Assembly (NCBI GenBank): GCA_905182135.1
Contig: CAJJAG010000006.1
Span: forward strand, 186,001 to 250,000
Source of the DNA: an uncultured Acidimicrobiaceae bacterium
GTDB taxonomy: Bacteria; Actinomycetota; Acidimicrobiia; Acidimicrobiales; UBA10347
Reading direction: 5' to 3'
DNA length: 64,000 nt
Below are positions 19,920-29,877 of the stretch, piece by piece; within the stretch, counting starts at the first letter, position 1; each line of letters begins with the position of its first letter. Position numbers and translations under genes: made by a program. The notes under the pieces are model-generated. The model was not told the origin of the DNA, did not search any database, and worked only from the letters and a program-made list of their open reading frames with translations.

Positions 19920-20843
19920 CTATTTCGAAATTGGTTCGCCAGCACGTTCCAAGACTGACGGGACAGTCTGGGAGGTCACATCGCTCTCGTCACTGTCACC
20001 ACCAGAGACCGGTGCACCTAAGACATCGCCATCACCCGGGCGCAGCCCACTTTCGTTCCGGTTCACCCACCGGAAGAACAAGAAAGTAATGATCGCCCAA
20101 ATATAGAACCCACCGCCGAGTTTCATGATTAGGCCTGCGGCTTGTTGATCAGCAACCGCGCTGATCCCCCAAAGGCGAACATCATGGTTGTAGACCCGGT
20201 AAAGCGGATTCTCAGCGACGGTCAGAAATGCTCCCGGCACCGTTGGCAACACCGAGTTCAGGAACAGGAAGATCATCTGGCCCGGATAGGTCGCTCGCAG
20301 CTCGGGCAAAGGGCTCACCACCGGCATCCACATGAGCAGGGCACCGGTAAACACAGAAAGGTGCACGACGTAGTGGAAGACTCCGTTCTCGATCGAGAAG
20401 TTCACTACTGGCTTCAGATGTGTCACCGCGATGAGCACGTTGAAGAGGACGGCGGCAACGACAGGGCGCGTAAACCGGCGAACCCAGACGCCACTGCTGC
20501 CATCGGTGCTCACAATCAAACGCGCGAGCCACTCGGGAACCGACAGCAAGAACAACGGCGGGATCACGAGCGTGATCAGCATGTGCTGGATCATGTGCGC
20601 GCCGTAGAGGTATTCCTCACTGATGTCGTGCATGGGCCAATCACTGGCCGCCCACAACAGCAACACCGCAGCGGTGAAGCAGACCTTCTGCCGGCGCCCA
20701 ACTACCGGCTCGCCTTGAGCGACGGCTTTGGGACCAAGAACTCGAGTCACCCAATAGCCGAAACCGACTATCACCACGATGATGAACCACACCTCAGGGT
20801 GTGGTTGGAACCGCCAGATATCGGTATCGGCGGCCAAGAACAT
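19920..20843 (-). CDS. ctaG: Cytochrome c oxidase assembly factor, CtaG (caa3-type) family
   Basis: 307 aa polytopic membrane protein of the Caa3_CtaG family, needed to assemble the CuA/caa3 oxidase. Six to seven helices are visible. Conserved His-containing segments include HPEVWFIIVV, SDWPMHDISEEYLYGAHMIQHMLI and FHYVVHLSVFTGALLMWMPV. It has an acidic Ser/Asp-rich cytoplasmic tail. Last gene of the eight-gene minus-strand cox operon, starting 3 nt after the subunit IV gene. Confidence 0.9.
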   Translation of the reverse strand: MFLAADTDIWRFQPHPEVWFIIVVIVGFGYWVTRVLGPKAVAQGEPVVGRRQKVCFTAAVLLLWAASDWPMHDISEEYLYGAHMIQHMLITLVIPPLFLLSVPEWLARLIVSTDGSSGVWVRRFTRPVVAAVLFNVLIAVTHLKPVVNFSIENGVFHYVVHLSVFTGALLMWMPVVSPLPELRATYPGQMIFLFLNSVLPTVPGAFLTVAENPLYRVYNHDVRLWGISAVADQQAAGLIMKLGGGFYIWAIITFLFFRWVNRNESGLRPGDGDVLGAPVSGGDSDESDVTSQTVPSVLERAGEPISK

Positions 20844-20845
20844 CG

Positions 20846-21175
20846 CTAACCAAGTCCGAAGAGGTCAAAGGCCAAGAAGAAAATGGTGTACACACCTATG
20901 GCCAAGACCAGACCTCCGATGAACAGATAGCGGAACCACGGCGTGTCGTACTTCAAATGCATGAAGTACGCCGCGACCATCACGAACTTGATGATCATCA
21001 GAACGGTCAGGGACAGAAAAAGAAACCAGCGTGGAACGCTGTCTTCGACGAAATAGGTACCAACTTCGAACGCCGTAAACAGCGCAAGAATGGCCGCGAT
21101 CTTCAGATAGAAGAGATCGCTTGGGTGGTGGTCGTCGTGCGCATCTACTGCGGCATCGACAGCGGTGTCAGTCAT
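20846..21175 (-). CDS. Cytochrome c oxidase subunit IV
   Basis: 109 aa membrane subunit of the heme-copper oxidase (COX4 of the caa3/Pro-type group). After a His/Asp-rich N-terminus (HDDHHPSDLFYLKIAA) come three helices: the first around AILALFTAFEVGTYF, the second SLTVLMIIKFVMVAAYFMHL with the hallmark AYFMHLKYD, and the third VLAIGVYTIFFLAFD. It sits between ctaE and ctaG, as in other actinobacterial operons. Confidence 0.9.
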   Translation of the reverse strand: MTDTAVDAAVDAHDDHHPSDLFYLKIAAILALFTAFEVGTYFVEDSVPRWFLFLSLTVLMIIKFVMVAAYFMHLKYDTPWFRYLFIGGLVLAIGVYTIFFLAFDLFGLG

Positions 21176-21185
21176 CGAGAAGCCT

Positions 21186-21884
21186 CTATTGCGGGAAGAG
21201 ATAGACGATAGTGAAGATCAGAATCCACACGACGTCAACGAAGTGCCAGTACAAGCCGACGATTTCAACAGTCTCGGCCTTGTCGCTGTTCAAGCGGCCT
21301 TGCTTGTGCATGATGTAGGTCGCCAACAACATGACGATGCCTATGGACACGTGCACGCCGTGGAAACCAGTCAGGGTGAAGAACGCCGAACCGAAGATGT
21401 TTGTCGAGTAGCCGAGGCCCTTTTCAACGAACTCGGTGAACTCGTAAATCTGACCAGCAATGAACACAGACCCGAGTGCAGCGGTAGTCAGCGTCCAGAT
21501 CCGGAAGCTGCGGTACTCGCTGCGTCGGATCGCCGAAAGTGCGAGCACCATCGTCAAGGAGCTACCAAGCAAGATAAATGAGGAGATCGACGTGAACGGA
21601 ATATCGAACACGCCCTCGCCGTCTTCGCCACCGAAACGAGGGCCGATATTGCGACCGTCCTGTTCGAATGGCGCCAGGTTCGCTGCGAAGTCGTTGAAGC
21701 GTTCCTTGTAGAGGAGATAGGTAGATATGAGTGCACCGAACAGCAAACACTCGCTGCCAAGGAACGCCCACATCAACAACTTGTTGTTGGAGATGCCCGT
21801 GGTCGTGCCGTGCTCAACAGTGTGCTCGGTAACCGTTTCAGTGGCCTCAGCAGGTGTTGCCTCAGACAGTTTTGAATCAGCCAA
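21186..21884 (-). CDS. ctaE: Cytochrome c oxidase subunit III
   Basis: About 232 aa. Helical subunit packed against subunit I. Diagnostic stretches are KLLMWAFLGSECLLFGALI, FTLTGFHGVHVSIGI and IVGLYWHFVDVVWILIFT. Start chosen at TTG 21884 because GAAGGAG lies a few bases upstream and the protein then begins MADSKLSEA; it overlaps the end of ctaD by 8 nt. A longer frame upstream lies within ctaD and is not credible. Confidence 0.92.
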   Translation of the reverse strand: MADSKLSEATPAEATETVTEHTVEHGTTTGISNNKLLMWAFLGSECLLFGALISTYLLYKERFNDFAANLAPFEQDGRNIGPRFGGEDGEGVFDIPFTSISSFILLGSSLTMVLALSAIRRSEYRSFRIWTLTTAALGSVFIAGQIYEFTEFVEKGLGYSTNIFGSAFFTLTGFHGVHVSIGIVMLLATYIMHKQGRLNSDKAETVEIVGLYWHFVDVVWILIFTIVYLFPQ

Positions 21885-23883
21885 CGGAGGCTCCTTCGTC
21901 AGCAGCATCAGCCGAAGCGTCTGCATCGTGATCGTCGTCATGGCCATGATCAGCGTGGCCGTGTGCGGCTTCGGGATCGTCGGCAGGTTCAAGGGCCCAG
22001 CCCAGGAAACCAGCAAGGAACAAGGCGCCTGCAGGAATCATCAGCCAGAAGGTATAGATGACCGAATAACCGATCACAGGCAGCGATAAGGACAGCACGA
22101 GCGGCCAATACGAGGGTGACGGCAGATGTACGTCTGTCGCACTTCCATCTTGAGCGATGTCTGCGGGATAGGCCTTGCGTACGATCTTGCCTTCCTCGTT
22201 CTCACCCCACTTGCGGTGCCACCAGTCGTCCTGGAACTCGACAGTGGGTTCAACATCGAAGTTGTGTACCGGCGTTGGAGAGGCTGTGGACCATTCCAGG
22301 CTGCGAGCGTCCCATGGATCGGGACCGACCTCAACAGGGTTCCGCTTGGCACTTCGAGCCGAGAGCCAGATATTTATCAGAAATGCCAGGGTGCCAAATG
22401 CGATCACGAAGGCACCAGCCGAAACAATGCCGTTCCAGAAGCCGAAGCCATCTTCCTTGGCGTAGCTCTGGTGGCGACGGGCCATGCCCTGGAGTCCAAG
22501 CACATGCATAGGTCCAAAAGTCATGTTGAAGCCGATCAGCATGAGCCAGAAGTTGATCTTGCCCCACTTCTCGCTCAGCTTGTAGCCAAAGACTTTAGGC
22601 CACCAGAAGTAGAAGCCAGAGAACATCCCGAGCAGAGAGCCACCAAAGATCACATAGTGGAAGTGAGCCACGATGTAGTACGTGTCGGTTTGTTGGGTAT
22701 CTGATGGGGCAACCGCGTGGGTAACCCCGGACAGCCCGCCGATAGTGAACATGGCGATAACGCCGCAAGCAAACAACATCGGCGTGTTGAAACGCAACCT
22801 GCCGCCCCACATAGTGGCGAGCCAGTTCAGAATCTTCACACCAGTCGGCACGGCAATGAACATGGTCGACAGGGAGAACGCAGCTACGGAAATTTCACCG
22901 ACACCTGACACAAACATATGGTGGGCCCAAACGCCCCAGCCCATGAAGCCAATGGCGATACCGCTACCAACCATGAACGGGTAGCCAAAGATTGGCTTGC
23001 GGCTGAAGGTCGGGATGACCTCCGAGATGATGCCGAAGGCGGGCAAGATCAGGATGTAGACCTCAGGGTGGCCGAAGATCCAGAACAAGTGCTGCCACAG
23101 CAGCGGACTGCCACCCTGTTCCACATTGAAGAAGTTCGCACCGAAACTACGGTCGAAGGTAAGGAGGAATAGTGCAATGGTGATCACTGGAACGGCGAAC
23201 AACAGCAGGAACTGCGTTACGAGAAGCATCCAGGTCAAAACCGGCATCTTCAATAGGCTCATACCCGGCGCTCGCATGTTGAGCACAGTGACGATCAGGT
23301 TGATCGCCGATACCAGCGATGCGATACCCACAATCTGCAAACCAATGGCATAGAAATCCATACCGCTGCCTGGGGCGAAGGTCACCGACGTGTTCGGCGC
23401 ATAGGCAAACCAACCACCGGCGGGGGCGCCACCCAGGAACCATGACGTGTTCAGGAAAATTGCACCCGCAAGCCAACACCAGAAACTGAAAGCGTTCAGG
23501 CGTGGAAAGGCAACGTCGCGAGCACCGACTTGAAGCGGCAAAAGATAGTTCGCAAACGCCGCTGCCATAGGCATGATCACTAGGAAGACCATGGTCACGC
23601 CATGCATGGTGAAGACTTGGTTGTACAGCGACTCGGACAAGAACTGCCCGTCAGGCGCCGCGAGCTGGATTCGGATCATCAGCGCTTCGACGCCACCGAA
23701 CAAGAAGAAGAACAGCGAACCAACGCCGTACATGATGCCGATCTTTTTATGATCGACTGTGGTGAACCAGCTTGCCCAACCGACGTCACTCTGGGGCCTT
23801 GTAAGTGCACCGAGGGGCCGTGCAGCAACCTTGGTGACAGCGCCAGCTTCAAGTGCTAGCGGGCGGTCTTCAGTGATTGCCAT
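21877..23883 (-). CDS. ctaD: Cytochrome c oxidase subunit I (catalytic)
   Basis: 668 aa catalytic subunit reducing O2 to water and pumping protons. All metal ligands are visible: heme a His94 (FTMHGV), CuB His272 with Tyr276 in GHPEVYILIL, CuB His321-His322 (WAHHMF), heme a3 His407 and heme a His409 (AHFHYVIFGG). It carries a long C-terminal extension ending in a His/Asp-rich tail (HGHADHGHDDDHDADA), perhaps metal-binding. Gene order ctaC-ctaD-ctaE-coxIV-ctaG marks the functional oxidase. Confidence 0.97.
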   Translation of the reverse strand: MAITEDRPLALEAGAVTKVAARPLGALTRPQSDVGWASWFTTVDHKKIGIMYGVGSLFFFLFGGVEALMIRIQLAAPDGQFLSESLYNQVFTMHGVTMVFLVIMPMAAAFANYLLPLQVGARDVAFPRLNAFSFWCWLAGAIFLNTSWFLGGAPAGGWFAYAPNTSVTFAPGSGMDFYAIGLQIVGIASLVSAINLIVTVLNMRAPGMSLLKMPVLTWMLLVTQFLLLFAVPVITIALFLLTFDRSFGANFFNVEQGGSPLLWQHLFWIFGHPEVYILILPAFGIISEVIPTFSRKPIFGYPFMVGSGIAIGFMGWGVWAHHMFVSGVGEISVAAFSLSTMFIAVPTGVKILNWLATMWGGRLRFNTPMLFACGVIAMFTIGGLSGVTHAVAPSDTQQTDTYYIVAHFHYVIFGGSLLGMFSGFYFWWPKVFGYKLSEKWGKINFWLMLIGFNMTFGPMHVLGLQGMARRHQSYAKEDGFGFWNGIVSAGAFVIAFGTLAFLINIWLSARSAKRNPVEVGPDPWDARSLEWSTASPTPVHNFDVEPTVEFQDDWWHRKWGENEEGKIVRKAYPADIAQDGSATDVHLPSPSYWPLVLSLSLPVIGYSVIYTFWLMIPAGALFLAGFLGWALEPADDPEAAHGHADHGHDDDHDADASADAADEGASVG

Positions 23884-23886
23884 GGG

Positions 23887-25230
23887 TTACTCAGCCCCTT
23901 CGTATTCGAGATTCGTAAGGAACTCGACCAGGTTGTCAACGTCTTCAGCAGACAAGGCTGTGAATGGCGTCATGCCTCGCTGTCCGCTTGGACTATCCCA
24001 AGCGTTGGCCTTCTGTTCGGGCGCATTCACGATCCACGCTTCAAGTGCACCTCGGTTGAGAGTGCCTTCACTGGCCAGATCGATGTAACGCTCTGCGTCA
24101 GGATTTTTGTATAGCTCAAATATGCCACCAGCAAAGGTCGAGCGGCTCTGTAGATGAGTCAGGTTCGGCGCCGCACCAGCTACCTGAGTCTGCTTGTCGA
24201 TGTAACGAACCGGCGGTTGATTAAGTACGTCTGCGAGGTCGTCGCCGACGCCGACGTTCGAGTAAAGGGCGAAGTCATCAATCGATCCATCTTCATAGTG
24301 CGAAGTAAGACCATTGATGACGTGGCAAGACGCACACTGGTTATTGAAAACTTCCCAACCAGCGAACTCGGCAGTGCCTTCTGTGGGCAGCACCGCATCA
24401 CGTTGCTGGGTCGCGGCCCATTCTTGCCATTCGTCAAGCGGGAGGCCGACCGCAAACTTCTCCATGTACGCATGCGAGAATCCGCAAAACTCGGTGCATT
24501 CACCGGGGAATCGGCCAGCGTTGCCAGCCTCAATGGTCCACGGGCTGTAGCGACCAGGAACGGCGTCGCGCTTGCCGTTCAGCGTCGGGATCCAGAACGA
24601 GTGGATGACGTCGCGGCTAGTAACTCGCAGCCGAATTTCTTCACCAACGGGCAAGACAAGCTCGTTGGCCGTCACGATGTCGGGGATTCCGTCGTCGTCG
24701 AGGTGGTACTGGAATTCCCACCACCATTGCTGACCAACAACTACAACTTCTTGGATCTGGCGATCCTCATTGGCCGACACATCGTCAAGCTCAAAGAGTA
24801 AACCGAGGGTGAAAAAGGCAATAACCGCCATGATCACGGTCGGCAAGATCGTCCACCCAATTTCCAGGCGTGTGTTGCCATGGATCTGCTCGGGGAACTC
24901 TTCGTCGGGGTAGACCTGTGACTCGTCTTCGGGCGCCTTTACCCTGAACTGTTTAGCCATGTACAAAATGGCGCCTTGAACCAGCACAAAGATCACGCCG
25001 GCGGCAAGGAGTAACCACACCAGGAAGTTGTCGAGCTTTTCGGCGATTGGGCTTTCGGGGTCCATCGTCGACAAATGGCGATCACCACAACCTGCGAGCA
25101 ACAACGACAGACCAACAACCGTCAACAAACCGTTGCGACGGCTCACAAATCGACGTGGCGGCGTGGCCTGCGATGATTCCACTTCGGTTGTTTCTGGCTG
25201 GGGCGTATGCAACTTCATCAACATTCTCAT
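23887..25230 (-). CDS. ctaC: Cytochrome c oxidase subunit II with fused cytochrome c domain (caa3 type)
   Basis: 447 aa lipoprotein: lipobox LLLAGCGD with Cys48, two transmembrane helices, then a cupredoxin CuA domain. CuA ligands lie in VIHSFW and ECTEFCGFSHAYM. A C-terminal class I cytochrome c follows with CASCH and a distal Met (GMTPF region). Electrons therefore enter from a donor through the attached heme c to CuA. The N-terminus before the lipobox is long and Arg-rich. It overlaps the preceding membrane-protein gene by ATGA. Confidence 0.94.
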   Translation of the reverse strand: MRMLMKLHTPQPETTEVESSQATPPRRFVSRRNGLLTVVGLSLLLAGCGDRHLSTMDPESPIAEKLDNFLVWLLLAAGVIFVLVQGAILYMAKQFRVKAPEDESQVYPDEEFPEQIHGNTRLEIGWTILPTVIMAVIAFFTLGLLFELDDVSANEDRQIQEVVVVGQQWWWEFQYHLDDDGIPDIVTANELVLPVGEEIRLRVTSRDVIHSFWIPTLNGKRDAVPGRYSPWTIEAGNAGRFPGECTEFCGFSHAYMEKFAVGLPLDEWQEWAATQQRDAVLPTEGTAEFAGWEVFNNQCASCHVINGLTSHYEDGSIDDFALYSNVGVGDDLADVLNQPPVRYIDKQTQVAGAAPNLTHLQSRSTFAGGIFELYKNPDAERYIDLASEGTLNRGALEAWIVNAPEQKANAWDSPSGQRGMTPFTALSAEDVDNLVEFLTNLEYEGAE

Positions 25231-26066
25231 TCGCCTTCAATAGTACTTTCTGCGCTGTGCCCGTCGTCGAGTTCATCTGCATGATGTCCAAGACGGGGTT
25301 CTACGACAGCTGACACAATGCCGAGTCCAATCACCGCAATGGCGACGATGCCGACGATGGCTCCCATGGTGCGTCGCCCAACCTGTGGGCGGAATACAGC
25401 GAGCACCGCTACAGCCAAAATAAGCACAGAGATAACACCAGCGATAATGACCGCCGCATTACCGGTTGCCCACAGCAACATGCGAGATACCGACAGTGCA
25501 AGGACCGCTCCAAGTGCCAGGCCGAGCACCGGAATTTCGAACGAAGCACCAACCCGGTCACGCAGGGCAAGGTTGGTCGTTGGGTCGCCCGTTGAACGGT
25601 CAGCCCATGAAGTGAGCGCCCATTCAATGGCGACGGCTGAGAGCAGAACAAGGCCAATGATCCAGAACGCCTTCGTTTCCATGACCAAACCAATAAGCAA
25701 CACGCCAAGACCGACTGCGGTCGTTGCAGGCCACCAACTTGGGGCGGTAGGACGTTGCGCAAGAGGCATGACCGAAGGCGTATCGCCAAGTTCGGCAACC
25801 GATTCGACGTCGGCGTCGCGGAAAGCCACAACGGTACTGCCGAGCAATGCCGCAGACATCGACATGAAGATCAGCACCATGAAGCCGCTAGCAGCGCCGA
25901 CGTCACCTTTCCAGCCAAGACTGACCAGGCCGATGATCGCGTTGCGGTCAACGAAGCCGAAATAGTCAGGGCCAGTGGCATCGCCGGACGAGAGCCCGTA
26001 GATGAAGGCGCCGAAGAGCCCGAGTGCGGCGAGGCCGCCGAAGAGTTTGAATCCTGGTGTGAACAC
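25227..26066 (-). CDS. Polytopic membrane protein of the cox operon, unassigned
   Basis: 279 aa with about seven hydrophobic helices and an acidic tail (HHADELDDGHSAES). The middle part, from SWWPATTAVGLGVLLIG through WALTSWADR, resembles the small actinobacterial oxidase subunit CtaF (P.S.WP..., ending in a Trp-rich loop), but the flanking helices do not. It lies between the COX3-like gene and ctaC, overlapping ctaC by 4 nt, so it is certainly co-translated with the oxidase. Possibly an accessory or fused subunit IV-like protein; not firmly recognised. Confidence 0.6.
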   Translation of the reverse strand: MFTPGFKLFGGLAALGLFGAFIYGLSSGDATGPDYFGFVDRNAIIGLVSLGWKGDVGAASGFMVLIFMSMSAALLGSTVVAFRDADVESVAELGDTPSVMPLAQRPTAPSWWPATTAVGLGVLLIGLVMETKAFWIIGLVLLSAVAIEWALTSWADRSTGDPTTNLALRDRVGASFEIPVLGLALGAVLALSVSRMLLWATGNAAVIIAGVISVLILAVAVLAVFRPQVGRRTMGAIVGIVAIAVIGLGIVSAVVEPRLGHHADELDDGHSAESTIEGE

Positions 26067-26072
26067 TGCTGC

Positions 26073-26738
26073 CTACTTGGTGATGAAGATCAGGATCCAG
26101 ATGATGAAATACAGCCCGACCATGGCGTACCAGAAGGTCGCAGCTGAAGCGACAACATCAACATGGTCTTTGGTATCGCTACTGGCCAGCGCTCGGAAGG
26201 CGGCAAAGGCCAGCAAACACATAGCCACAATGATCATGGCGACGTGTGATGCGGTAATTGTGTAGATCAAGGTTGCGGCCGACGAGCCGCTGGTGTCATC
26301 GATCACCAAGCCAAGCTGCTTCCACTGGAAGACGACCTGGTTGATGACTGCAGCGCCGAACATGGCCTGGGTGGCCAAGGCCAATAGGCCGTGCCGGCGA
26401 TCGCTGCGTTTGAAGCTGTACACCGCCCACTGCATGGTGATGCACGACATGAGCAATGTCCACGTCATGATCGTTGGTGCTGTCAGTTCGACCTGCGCCG
26501 AATCTGGAATCCAAGAGCTAACACGTTCGCCCGCAGCGGCCAAGCCGTCTTGCTCGAGCTTCCAAGTGTTGCGGGACGAGACATAGGCGCCGAATAGGCC
26601 ACCGAAGTACATCACCCAGATTGCGGTGAACGCTGCAGTGCCAATCTGCAAGGTGCGCTTACGAGGGACAAACGGGGCTGGTGCCTCGCTGACTACGGCA
26701 TGCGCTAGGTCAGTGGGCGAGAACGTGGTTCCGCTCAT
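26073..26738 (-). CDS. COX3-like paralogue paired with the inactive COX1 paralogue
   Basis: 221 aa membrane protein with five helices, resembling heme-copper oxidase subunit III in layout: IGTAAFTAIWVMYFGGLFGAYVSSR, then IMTWTLLMSCITMQWAVYSFKR, QAMFGAAVINQVVFQW and a final MVGLYFIIWILIFI that matches the last helix of CtaE (HFVDVVWILIFT). The conserved GFHGVHV and YWHFVD histidines are not preserved (TASHVAM, YAMVGLY). Its ATG overlaps the stop of the COX1-like gene. Likely a divergent subunit III that partners the inactive subunit I. Confidence 0.65.
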   Translation of the reverse strand: MSGTTFSPTDLAHAVVSEAPAPFVPRKRTLQIGTAAFTAIWVMYFGGLFGAYVSSRNTWKLEQDGLAAAGERVSSWIPDSAQVELTAPTIMTWTLLMSCITMQWAVYSFKRSDRRHGLLALATQAMFGAAVINQVVFQWKQLGLVIDDTSGSSAATLIYTITASHVAMIIVAMCLLAFAAFRALASSDTKDHVDVVASAATFWYAMVGLYFIIWILIFITK

Positions 26739-28531
26739 GCTGATGCCCCTTCTGCGTAGGGATCTTGGAAGTCTTCATCGAGCAATGGCGCTTCGGAGGT
26801 CACAATAAATGGACCGTCAAAGTTGCCAGCCGGAGGCGGCGATTCACTAAGCCATTCGAGCGTGTGGCCACCAACAGGGTTCCGGTTGTCGATATCTTCA
26901 TTGTCGTCATCGCTACCAAAGAACACCGCGACCGGGACAGCGAGCAATACCAGACCAAAGCCTGCAAGGACGCCAAATGAGCCGATCAGGCTGATCAAGT
27001 TCAGAACCTCAACACCGTCACGGGCGACGTAGTCGGGGTCCCTAGCGAAATCAGGCTGCTCGAGGAAGCCGCTGACGGCATCAGGCAGCGCCGATGCCAT
27101 TGCTCCGCCAAGAAGCGACAGGCCCGCAACCATGCCGAGGCCCGCAGGCAGACGGCGGCCAAAGATCTTGGATGCCCAATAGAAGAGTCCAGCAACACCG
27201 GCGAGCAGGCCGGCTATTAACGCGAGTTGCACCATGGCGCCAGACACCGAGGTAGCAGCGATCTCGTCGAACGTATCGCCAAGCCATCCTTCGAGGTCGC
27301 TCAGAAATTCCCAGCCATCACCAGATCCAGAGCCAGAACCTTGGAAGAAGCCAACGATGCTGTTCAAGAATCCAACAAGTGGGGCTAGCAAGCTGTCGAG
27401 AACTCGCACGGCTGCGAGTGCCCCTGCGGTGAGCAACGCGACAAGCGACATGACCGACAAGGCAAGGTGCGCAGACATGACTGGCGCTCGTCCGGCTGCT
27501 TTCGCGGTGACTGCGCAGCAGCCAAGGAAGGCAAGAATCGGCAGTATCAGCGTGATCGATCCGACCACGTAGAGCCAGGTGGTGTTGGCATTGGGGTTGA
27601 AGAAAGTTTGGGCGTACGCCCCGAAGCTCAACGCACCAAAGGCGCCAATAGCGACCATGGCCATGTCGTAGTTTTTCAGGCGACGGCGAAATGCAACTGG
27701 CACGGTTTCACCAAGAATGCCCAGCACGGGGATGGCGAAGGCGAAGACTTGTGGTTGGTCAAAGATCCAATTGATCTGCTCATAGAGGTGCTCGCCACCG
27801 AAGCTCTGGGCGGCTTCGCCCCGGGCGTCGATCCACATGACCATCAGATTCGAGAAGAGAACAGGCAGCGAGAGAAGCCAAACGCTGGCGGCGACCAGCA
27901 TGGACCAAGTGAACAGCGGCACGTTGTAGAGCGACATGCCCTTGCTTCGCTCGGTGAAGATCGTGGTGATGATCACGAGCGAGGCAATTAGCAATGACAG
28001 CACTACTGCAGCCATTGCCAGCATCGAAAGCTGTGTCGCCTGACTAACAGTTGCGCCACTGCGGTCAACAAGACCGCCATCCATGGCCCAAGATACGATC
28101 ATGATTGCGCCAGCGACGACCCACGACCACAGCGCTGCGGCAGCAGCTCGTGGGAAGGCCAGCGATGGCGCGCCGATCTGCAACGGCACCATGACCATCG
28201 CAATACCGATAAGCAGCGGGACCACGAACAAGAACACCAAGCTGACTCGGTGCATCGAGAACCATTGCTCGTAGGTCGTCAAGCTGGTGAAGACCGCAAC
28301 GCTGTCTGTGTCGACTCGCTCGATGCGGACCAGCACATCGGCGACCAGTGTGAACAAACCAAAGAGCAGGGACCCGAGGATCCAGAGTCGACCAATGACC
28401 TTGTGGTCACCGCTCGACACACTGTCGGCGAGGATGTTCTTGGGGAGCCGTTGATAGACCGCTGGGGCCATTGCCTCGCGCACCGCTACGGGTGCCGCCG
28501 AGGCGTCGGGCTCGATTTCAGTGATTGTCAT
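26735..28531 (-). CDS. COX1-like heme-copper oxidase paralogue lacking catalytic ligands
   Basis: 598 aa, recognisably homologous to ctaD in its first half (FSMHRVSLVFLFVVP and VPLQIGAPSLAFPR align with CtaD). The heme a ligand His94 is kept, but CtaD HPEVY is here QPQVF (259-263), the CuB pair HH is QT (308-309), and the HFHY segment is replaced by a SGAMV-like stretch. Thus CuB, the cross-linked Tyr, the proton-path Glu and heme a3 ligands are all lost. It cannot be a terminal oxidase; a structural or assembly role is inferred. First gene of the operon, strongly expressed position. Confidence 0.8.
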   Translation of the reverse strand: MTITEIEPDASAAPVAVREAMAPAVYQRLPKNILADSVSSGDHKVIGRLWILGSLLFGLFTLVADVLVRIERVDTDSVAVFTSLTTYEQWFSMHRVSLVFLFVVPLLIGIAMVMVPLQIGAPSLAFPRAAAAALWSWVVAGAIMIVSWAMDGGLVDRSGATVSQATQLSMLAMAAVVLSLLIASLVIITTIFTERSKGMSLYNVPLFTWSMLVAASVWLLSLPVLFSNLMVMWIDARGEAAQSFGGEHLYEQINWIFDQPQVFAFAIPVLGILGETVPVAFRRRLKNYDMAMVAIGAFGALSFGAYAQTFFNPNANTTWLYVVGSITLILPILAFLGCCAVTAKAAGRAPVMSAHLALSVMSLVALLTAGALAAVRVLDSLLAPLVGFLNSIVGFFQGSGSGSGDGWEFLSDLEGWLGDTFDEIAATSVSGAMVQLALIAGLLAGVAGLFYWASKIFGRRLPAGLGMVAGLSLLGGAMASALPDAVSGFLEQPDFARDPDYVARDGVEVLNLISLIGSFGVLAGFGLVLLAVPVAVFFGSDDDNEDIDNRNPVGGHTLEWLSESPPPAGNFDGPFIVTSEAPLLDEDFQDPYAEGASA

Positions 28532-28726: not shown

Positions 28727-29641
28727 CTAGACCAGTTGATCGACGGCCATTGCTCCAAAGAGCAGGACGATATAGGTAATAGACCAACCAAACAGTGCCA
28801 TTGCTGGCCCCGGTTGAGGGTCGCGGGCTACCCGAATTGCGTACCCGAGGAACACTGCGCCTAACACAACAGCGGACGATATATAGATGACGCCCATGTC
28901 GGCAACTGGCCCAAATACGAGAGTAAGAGCCCACAAAAGGACGGTGTAAATCACGATGCGACGAGTCACCGTGGCCAGATTGGCGACAACGGGCAGCATC
29001 GGGACATCAGCCGCCTTGTAGTCATCCTTGTACTTGATCGCCAATGCCCAGAAATGAGGAGGCGTCCAGTAAAAGATGATGGCGAACATTACGATGGGGG
29101 CCCAGTTGCGGCCCTCTGTCAGATCTAACGAGTTTGTCACTGCAGTCCAACCGACCAAGACCGGCACCGCCCCAGCGGCGCCACCAATGACAATATTGCT
29201 GGCCGAGCGACGCTTGAGCCACAAGGTGTAGACGAAGACGTAGAACAGCATCGCCGATACCGCAAGTACAGCGCTAAGCAAATTTACGAAGTACCACAGG
29301 AAGACAAAGGCAATTGCTTCCAGGGTCAGGGCAAATACCAATGCTTCGGTCGGCTGCACCACGCCAGTAACCAGCGGACGTCCTTTGGTGCGGTCCATGA
29401 TCGCGTCAATATCGCGATCGACGTACATATTTACTGCGTTAGCACCGCCAGCGGCCAGAGTGCCACCGACCACAGTTGCGATGATGAGCCAGAGTCCTGG
29501 CCACCCCTGCTTGGCTACGATCATGGCGGGCACGGTCTCGACAAGCAGCAGTTCGATGATGCGGGGCTTAGTAAGCGCCACGAAACCTTTGATACGGGTG
29601 CCGCTACTCGCTGGTTCCGTCGTTTCCAGCACCGTTGCCAT
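28727..29641 (-). CDS. ctaB: Protoheme IX farnesyltransferase (heme O synthase)
   Basis: UbiA-type membrane prenyltransferase converting heme B to heme O, the precursor of heme A. About 304 aa with nine helices. The prenyl-PP sites are NMYVDRDIDAIMDRTKGRPL and the second Asp motif around KYKDDYKAADVPML; FYWTPPHFWALA is a heme O synthase signature. ATG at 29641 gives MATVLETTEP. It lies upstream of and in the same direction as the cox operon and works with ctaA at 34.7 kb. A divergent spacer of about 230 bp separates it from the next gene. Confidence 0.94.
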   Translation of the reverse strand: MATVLETTEPASSGTRIKGFVALTKPRIIELLLVETVPAMIVAKQGWPGLWLIIATVVGGTLAAGGANAVNMYVDRDIDAIMDRTKGRPLVTGVVQPTEALVFALTLEAIAFVFLWYFVNLLSAVLAVSAMLFYVFVYTLWLKRRSASNIVIGGAAGAVPVLVGWTAVTNSLDLTEGRNWAPIVMFAIIFYWTPPHFWALAIKYKDDYKAADVPMLPVVANLATVTRRIVIYTVLLWALTLVFGPVADMGVIYISSAVVLGAVFLGYAIRVARDPQPGPAMALFGWSITYIVLLFGAMAVDQLV

Positions 29642-29877
29642 CGTGTCCGATGCTAACCGTGTCGGCGGGTATCGCGAGCCTTGCCAGCGGCCTTCTTTTG
29701 CGGTCTTTTGCCCGGTTCGAAAACGTAAGGGTTGTGTTCCAACACTTCTCGGCCCATCTCGTAGCAACCCTCGATGGACTCCCTGTCGCATGGGGACTCC
29801 GGCATCATCGCCTATTTAGCTCGAACAGGATCGTAAAACGCAGCGAGCGATCCGGCCTACCGGGCATACTCGGTGGC

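Follow-up and report, generated by a model that had tools for sequence, protein, structure and literature searches.

Few catalytic proteins are as well conserved as COX1. The window, by which we mean the whole 64,000-nucleotide stretch of DNA analysed here from an uncultured Acidimicrobiaceae bacterium, encodes two proteins of this family within one run of genes. One is the catalytic subunit of a caa3 oxidase and has all of its ligands. The other, which we call COX1', has lost CuB and the paired heme ligands. The genes concerned are as follows.

28727-29791, minus strand: CtaB (heme o synthase), named by eye from its sequence and place; the start may be overlong.
26735-28531, minus strand: COX1', a COX1-like protein of 598 aa with an ATG start; Pfam COX1 (PF00115), 9.4e-43.
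26073-26738, minus strand: COX3', a COX3-like protein of 221 aa; Pfam COX3 (PF00510), 7.7e-8.
25227-26066, minus strand: orf279, the third cassette gene, a putative subunit IV of the CtaF-like type, extended by further helices at its C-terminus.
23887-25230, minus strand: CtaC, subunit II of the active caa3 oxidase, fused to a cytochrome c; Pfam finds the COX2 and cytochrome c domains.
21877-23883, minus strand: CtaD, the active COX1 with all ligands and a CtaF-like C-terminal hairpin.
21186-22016, minus strand: CtaE, the active COX3; the listed start is overlong and the real one is probably near the CtaD stop.
20846-21175, minus strand: COX4, prokaryotic subunit IV (Pfam).
19920-20843, minus strand: CtaG, caa3 assembly factor (Pfam).

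On the minus strand the order is ctaB, COX1', COX3', orf279, ctaC, ctaD, ctaE, COX4 and ctaG, and CtaC is the sole subunit II gene of this run. From COX1' onward the genes are separated by spacers or overlaps of a few bases. COX1' and COX3' overlap by 4 nt, the COX3' start lying within the COX1' stop, and orf279 and ctaC share another 4 nt (25227-25230). Judging from this spacing, the genes are probably co-transcribed; a promoter scan returned nothing exceeding chance. The original prediction had described a full-length, intact COX1-like gene joined to a COX3-like gene by overlapping codons and standing beside true caa3 genes. All of this holds, and Pfam confirms CtaC, CtaD, CtaE, COX4 and CtaG. 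However, the pair does not head the operon, since ctaB is the first gene, 195 nt upstream of COX1'. Nor is it only a pair: both genes are real, but the third cassette gene, orf279, had been missed.

COX1' aligns with the CtaD of the window at 26% identity over 589 columns (BLASTP, E 5e-45). The likeness, first described for the N-terminal half, runs well past it and includes the C-terminal LEW..PP..NF tail; the DHK and AFPR motifs are also shared. Against this background of homology over most of its length and a common operon, COX1' differs from CtaD, an A-type heme-copper oxidase subunit of the caa3/aa3 kind (PF00115), in lacking CuB, the paired heme ligands, the D and K channels and the propionate arginine pair. 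In the alignment HPEVY has become QPQVF and HH has become QT, as originally described, so that the CuB histidine triad reads Q, Q, T; HFHY, originally described as gone, has become MVQL. At the positions of D132, N139, K362, E286 and Y288 the protein has S, A, F, Q and F (we take these residue numbers and roles, with those of T359 and R481, from the Rhodobacter enzyme). Among the heme-ligand positions only H94 is present, the equivalents of H421 and H419 being Q and M. H94 had been regarded as a kept ligand. The histidine is there in the window and in G003, but G001, G002 and G004 carry Gln; because three of the four genus mates differ in this way, the residue is incidental and not a meaningful retained ligand. 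The assignment of the 12-helix COX1 fold to COX1' rests on sequence homology. All 34 aligned members match Pfam COX1, and the window protein reaches 208 bits against a cut-off of 670.75 for the NCBIfam CtaD_CoxA model. AlphaFold models built from few alignment rows gave a pLDDT of 39 for COX1' and 43 for orf279.

The two companions of COX1' are also oxidase-like. COX3' scores 32.9 bits against the Pfam COX3 cut-off of 23.8. The conserved acidic residue of subunit III (E90) is acidic in all 25 CtaE rows, whereas of the 24 valid COX3' rows a single one has an acidic residue there, an Asp. The orf279 protein of the window has no Pfam match, and PF12270 is matched by 3 of 18 family members (best E 0.0013). 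Its N-terminal half resembles the CtaF-type proteins found at aa3 loci (hhalign E 9e-7, probability 91%), and its hairpin resembles the C-terminus of caa3 CtaD (E 1.9e-7). At the profile level, and at that level only, orf279 would belong to CtaF/subunit IV; it differs from CtaF, the actinobacterial subunit IV (PF12270), in its additional C-terminal helices. Since orf279 aligns with both the CtaF-type proteins and the CtaD hairpin, the cassette looks like a set of oxidase subunits I, III and IV minus subunit II. In the window, a CtaF-like (PF12270) hairpin is itself fused to the C-terminus of the caa3 CtaD (21877-22212).

To describe the distribution of the cassette, stretches from relatives were fetched and every COX1 was classed by its ligands. 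A COX1-family match to COX1', canonical CtaD among them, was present in 40 of 41 related genomes, and full-length COX1' was present in 37 distinct genomes with 22 family codes; two frameshifted ORFs (L056) and two fragments (L071 and L086) were excluded from these counts. The order ctaB, COX1', COX3', orf279, ctaC, ctaD, ctaE, COX4 was found in 32/32 Acidimicrobiales caa3 operons with visible upstream DNA, and ctaG ends it wherever the fetched stretch extends that far. These operons comprise the window, 20 loci and 11 further loci. They include one (L084) in which COX1' is a 179-aa fragment at a contig end with ctaB out of view, which counts for presence only, and one (L042) in which other genes separate orf279 from ctaC; L078, which begins within the cassette, and L065 and L055, whose upstream DNA is out of view, were left out. 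The caa3 genes follow the cassette in every visible operon of the order, but one genome, G028, has COX1' without them.

In other orders of the class, none of 13 caa3 operons with at least 4 kb visible carries the cassette upstream of ctaC (L070, L086, L121-L130 and L132; L120 and L131 end too close to ctaC). A class-wide draw of 119 genomes gave strong CtaD matches in 20 Acidimicrobiales and 38 other genomes, and the ten Acidimicrobiales genomes of this draw without a caa3 CtaD match were likewise without orf279. In a phylum-level profile search with 34 COX1' rows, the best 15 matches were all Acidimicrobiales (463 to 644 bits), and the best match outside the order scored 457 bits. No COX1' was present among the 20 top-listed matches from outside the order, all 20 of which have all six ligands. 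In a search of plasmids, no record spanned 80% of COX1' in one place, and all were below 60% identity. Within this sample, the cassette is an addition made by one order, the Acidimicrobiales.

The family also records how the cofactors were lost. No relative has all of the ligands in this gene, in agreement with the original prediction, and heme histidines survive in a few basal members. The CuB triad is present in 0/37 COX1' proteins, as are the equivalents of D132, N139, K362 and R481, and that of T359 is present in one; the classes were defined by ligands, which makes the CuB counts for the canonical class circular but does not touch the counts of channel residues and arginine. Among the 30 heme-less members, one keeps the E286 equivalent, and at the Tyr288 position 14 have Tyr and 12 have Phe. 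Two COX1' members (L035 and L042) keep the low-spin His pair. In L038 all three heme histidines are present and CuB is gone. L043-L046 likewise have the three heme histidines (H94 and both of HxH), and in 4/4 the first CuB position is occupied by Arg, in a WLFGRPEVY-like motif; it is possible from these residues that they are heme proteins without CuB. All four have a second Arg at the D132 position. On a tree computed without the ligand columns, COX1' forms one side of a branch with a support of 100/100. Loss of CuB needs one change on this tree, loss of the low-spin His pair one, and loss of the high-spin His four. Because the loss of CuB is a single change and the members with heme histidines branch closest to the canonical side, CuB was most likely lost first and the hemes afterwards.

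What replaced the CuB ligands is also patterned. Of the 30 heme-less members, 25 have Gln in the first CuB-His column and 22 have it in the second. Only six of 514 scored columns have a Gln majority, and three of these are former active-site positions. Gln is thus favoured at the former CuB sites but not fixed, since the tree requires 6 changes for its states at the first position and 8 for those at the second.

The sequences are under constraint. For the window and G002, the relative closest to it, dN/dS (NG86) was 0.066 for COX1', 0.082 for COX3' and 0.102 for orf279, and for the same genome pair 0.037 for CtaD, 0.084 for CtaC, 0.091 for CtaG and 0.119 for CtaE, all of them rough figures with dS between 0.76 and 1.66. 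The COX1'/COX3' pair of the window is under purifying selection. Trees of 25 genomes put the rate of COX1' at 2.4 times that of CtaD, close to the rates of CtaC and COX4. When scaled to CtaD, the conservation of COX1' peaks in the C-tail (0.80), loop II-III (0.76) and loop IV-V (0.69), all of which presumably face the cytoplasm, and is lowest in helices VII and VIII (0.35 and 0.30). Distances correlate with those of CtaD at 0.87 for COX1', 0.84 for COX3' and 0.88 for orf279, and at 0.82, 0.79 and 0.84 when CtaB is removed as a partial correlation. Together with the tight linkage to caa3, this covariation suggests that the cassette is coupled to CtaD; it is a weak test because the undoubted partners CtaE (0.50) and COX4 (0.57) correlate less with CtaD than the cassette proteins do. 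A search of CtaD for order-specific residues gave three diagnostic positions only (Q118, N164 and L240) and thus no patch that would mark a docking site.

We propose that COX1', COX3' and orf279 descend from a copy of an oxidase core without subunit II, which would have been turned into a metal-free pseudo-oxidase module by losing CuB first and the low-spin heme ligands later. In the membrane, next to the active CtaC-CtaD-CtaE-COX4 oxidase, the module would serve as its non-catalytic partner in a stabilising, dimer-forming or docking role, and the Gln residues in place of the CuB histidines may hold the emptied core together. The original prediction had named a structural or regulatory subunit as one possibility; its occurrence together with caa3 and a rate that covaries with that of CtaD favour this, and the contact itself is presumed. 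The truncated orf279 of G028, which has no ctaC-ctaG block, also speaks for the partnership; the intact COX1' and COX3' of that genome, the weakness of the covariation test and the missing docking patch on CtaD speak against it. Passages of one published account (PMC6853902) describe a comparable case in cytochrome bd, in which CydA and CydB are related by a pseudo-twofold that probably goes back to gene duplication, CydB is a heme-free homologous sister, and ubiquinone occupies heme positions in CydB. As far as those passages go, CydB resembles COX1' in being a sister subunit without the hemes of its catalytic paralogue. It belongs to an unrelated family, however; COX1' also has its own copies of subunits III and IV, and a COX1'-CtaD heterodimer is hypothetical. 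On the proposal that the module is kept as a metal-free, subunit-II-less partner of caa3, in the manner of CydB to CydA, our judgement is evenly balanced. We hold more tentatively, and with some doubt, the wider reading that these are order-wide metal-free pseudo-oxidases, in which a I-III-IV set lost CuB and then the hemes, became an obligate non-catalytic half of the caa3 complex and turned its Gln-lined former active site into a new structural or ligand site.

Several other explanations have to be weighed against this partnership. The cassette might have a separate function, in which the emptied core binds or senses a new ligand such as a quinone, a lipid, a gas or another small molecule and the basal members are perhaps working heme proteins without CuB. 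The heme histidines and Arg of the four basal members, the three heme histidines of L038, the concentration of Gln-majority columns at the former active site and the persistence of COX1' without caa3 in G028 all favour such a role, as does the quinone that follows the heme path in CydB, according to the same passages (PMC6853902). We consider it unlikely all the same: COX1' has no recognised ligand-binding domain, its linkage to caa3 is otherwise strict, and in the heme-less family helices VI-X, which hold the active site, rank near the bottom when conservation is compared with that of CtaD. Slightly less probable still is an assembly role, in which the three proteins would act transiently, as a template or placeholder either for CtaE and COX4 or for the loading of CtaD with heme and copper, and would stay outside the mature oxidase. 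This fits the site of the cassette, which has ctaB on one side and on the other the oxidase genes, ending in ctaG, and it fits the metal-free state and the better preservation of the two loops and the C-tail; but a chaperone made of three copied subunits would be large, and all 13 caa3 operons from the other orders manage without it.

The remaining two explanations are far less probable. One is a relic channel through which protons or ions still pass or leak, along the lines of the proton/ion-translocating relic originally suggested; homology to a proton pump speaks for it. We regard it as very improbable, given that the D-channel Asp and Asn and the K-channel Lys were lost throughout the family along with the ligands, and the K-channel Thr and the catalytic Glu in all but one of the members counted for each. 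Neutral decay, with COX1' as a dead gene awaiting deletion, is the hardest to credit. It could call on the faster rate of COX1', on an apparent frameshift near a contig end in G029 and on the truncated orf279 of G028, but it is opposed by the low dN/dS of COX1', by open full-length frames in 37 genomes and by the tree, on which CuB is already absent at the root of the COX1' sample. The original view that this is a maintained copy and not decay was borne out by the order-wide presence, the dN/dS values of the pair, the constant gene order and the uniform absence of CuB.

If the reading of a metal-free branch is true, those basal members that combine heme ligands with an Arg at the CuB site would be living intermediates, and living species would provide an ordered series of cofactor loss. 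A COX1 scaffold retained after the loss of its metals would also show its worth without chemistry. Searches of open-licence literature turned up no account of a COX1 paralogue without metals. For annotation there is a practical warning: COX1' passes the Pfam COX1 cut-off, so that counts of COX1 matches overstate the number of oxidases in genomes that carry it.

Three loci depart from the common arrangement. In G028 (L033, 1-7400) the ctaC-ctaG block is absent from its place, apparently by deletion; COX1' and COX3' are intact and orf279 is truncated by an in-frame stop. The closest canonical COX1 in this genome, which is 99% complete, has 39% identity to the CtaD of the window. The locus can be read as decay begun after the loss of the partner or as independence of COX1', in a draft with 6% contamination. 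The remnant of ctaB, COX1', COX3' and truncated orf279 adjoins ABC-transporter-like genes. In G029 (L056, 7234-8711) COX1' extends over two frames near the contig end, by a frameshift or a draft error. In G033 (L042, 8327-11065) the genes between orf279 and ctaC resemble, by eye, those of a metal ABC transporter, with an ATPase, a permease and a binding lipoprotein.
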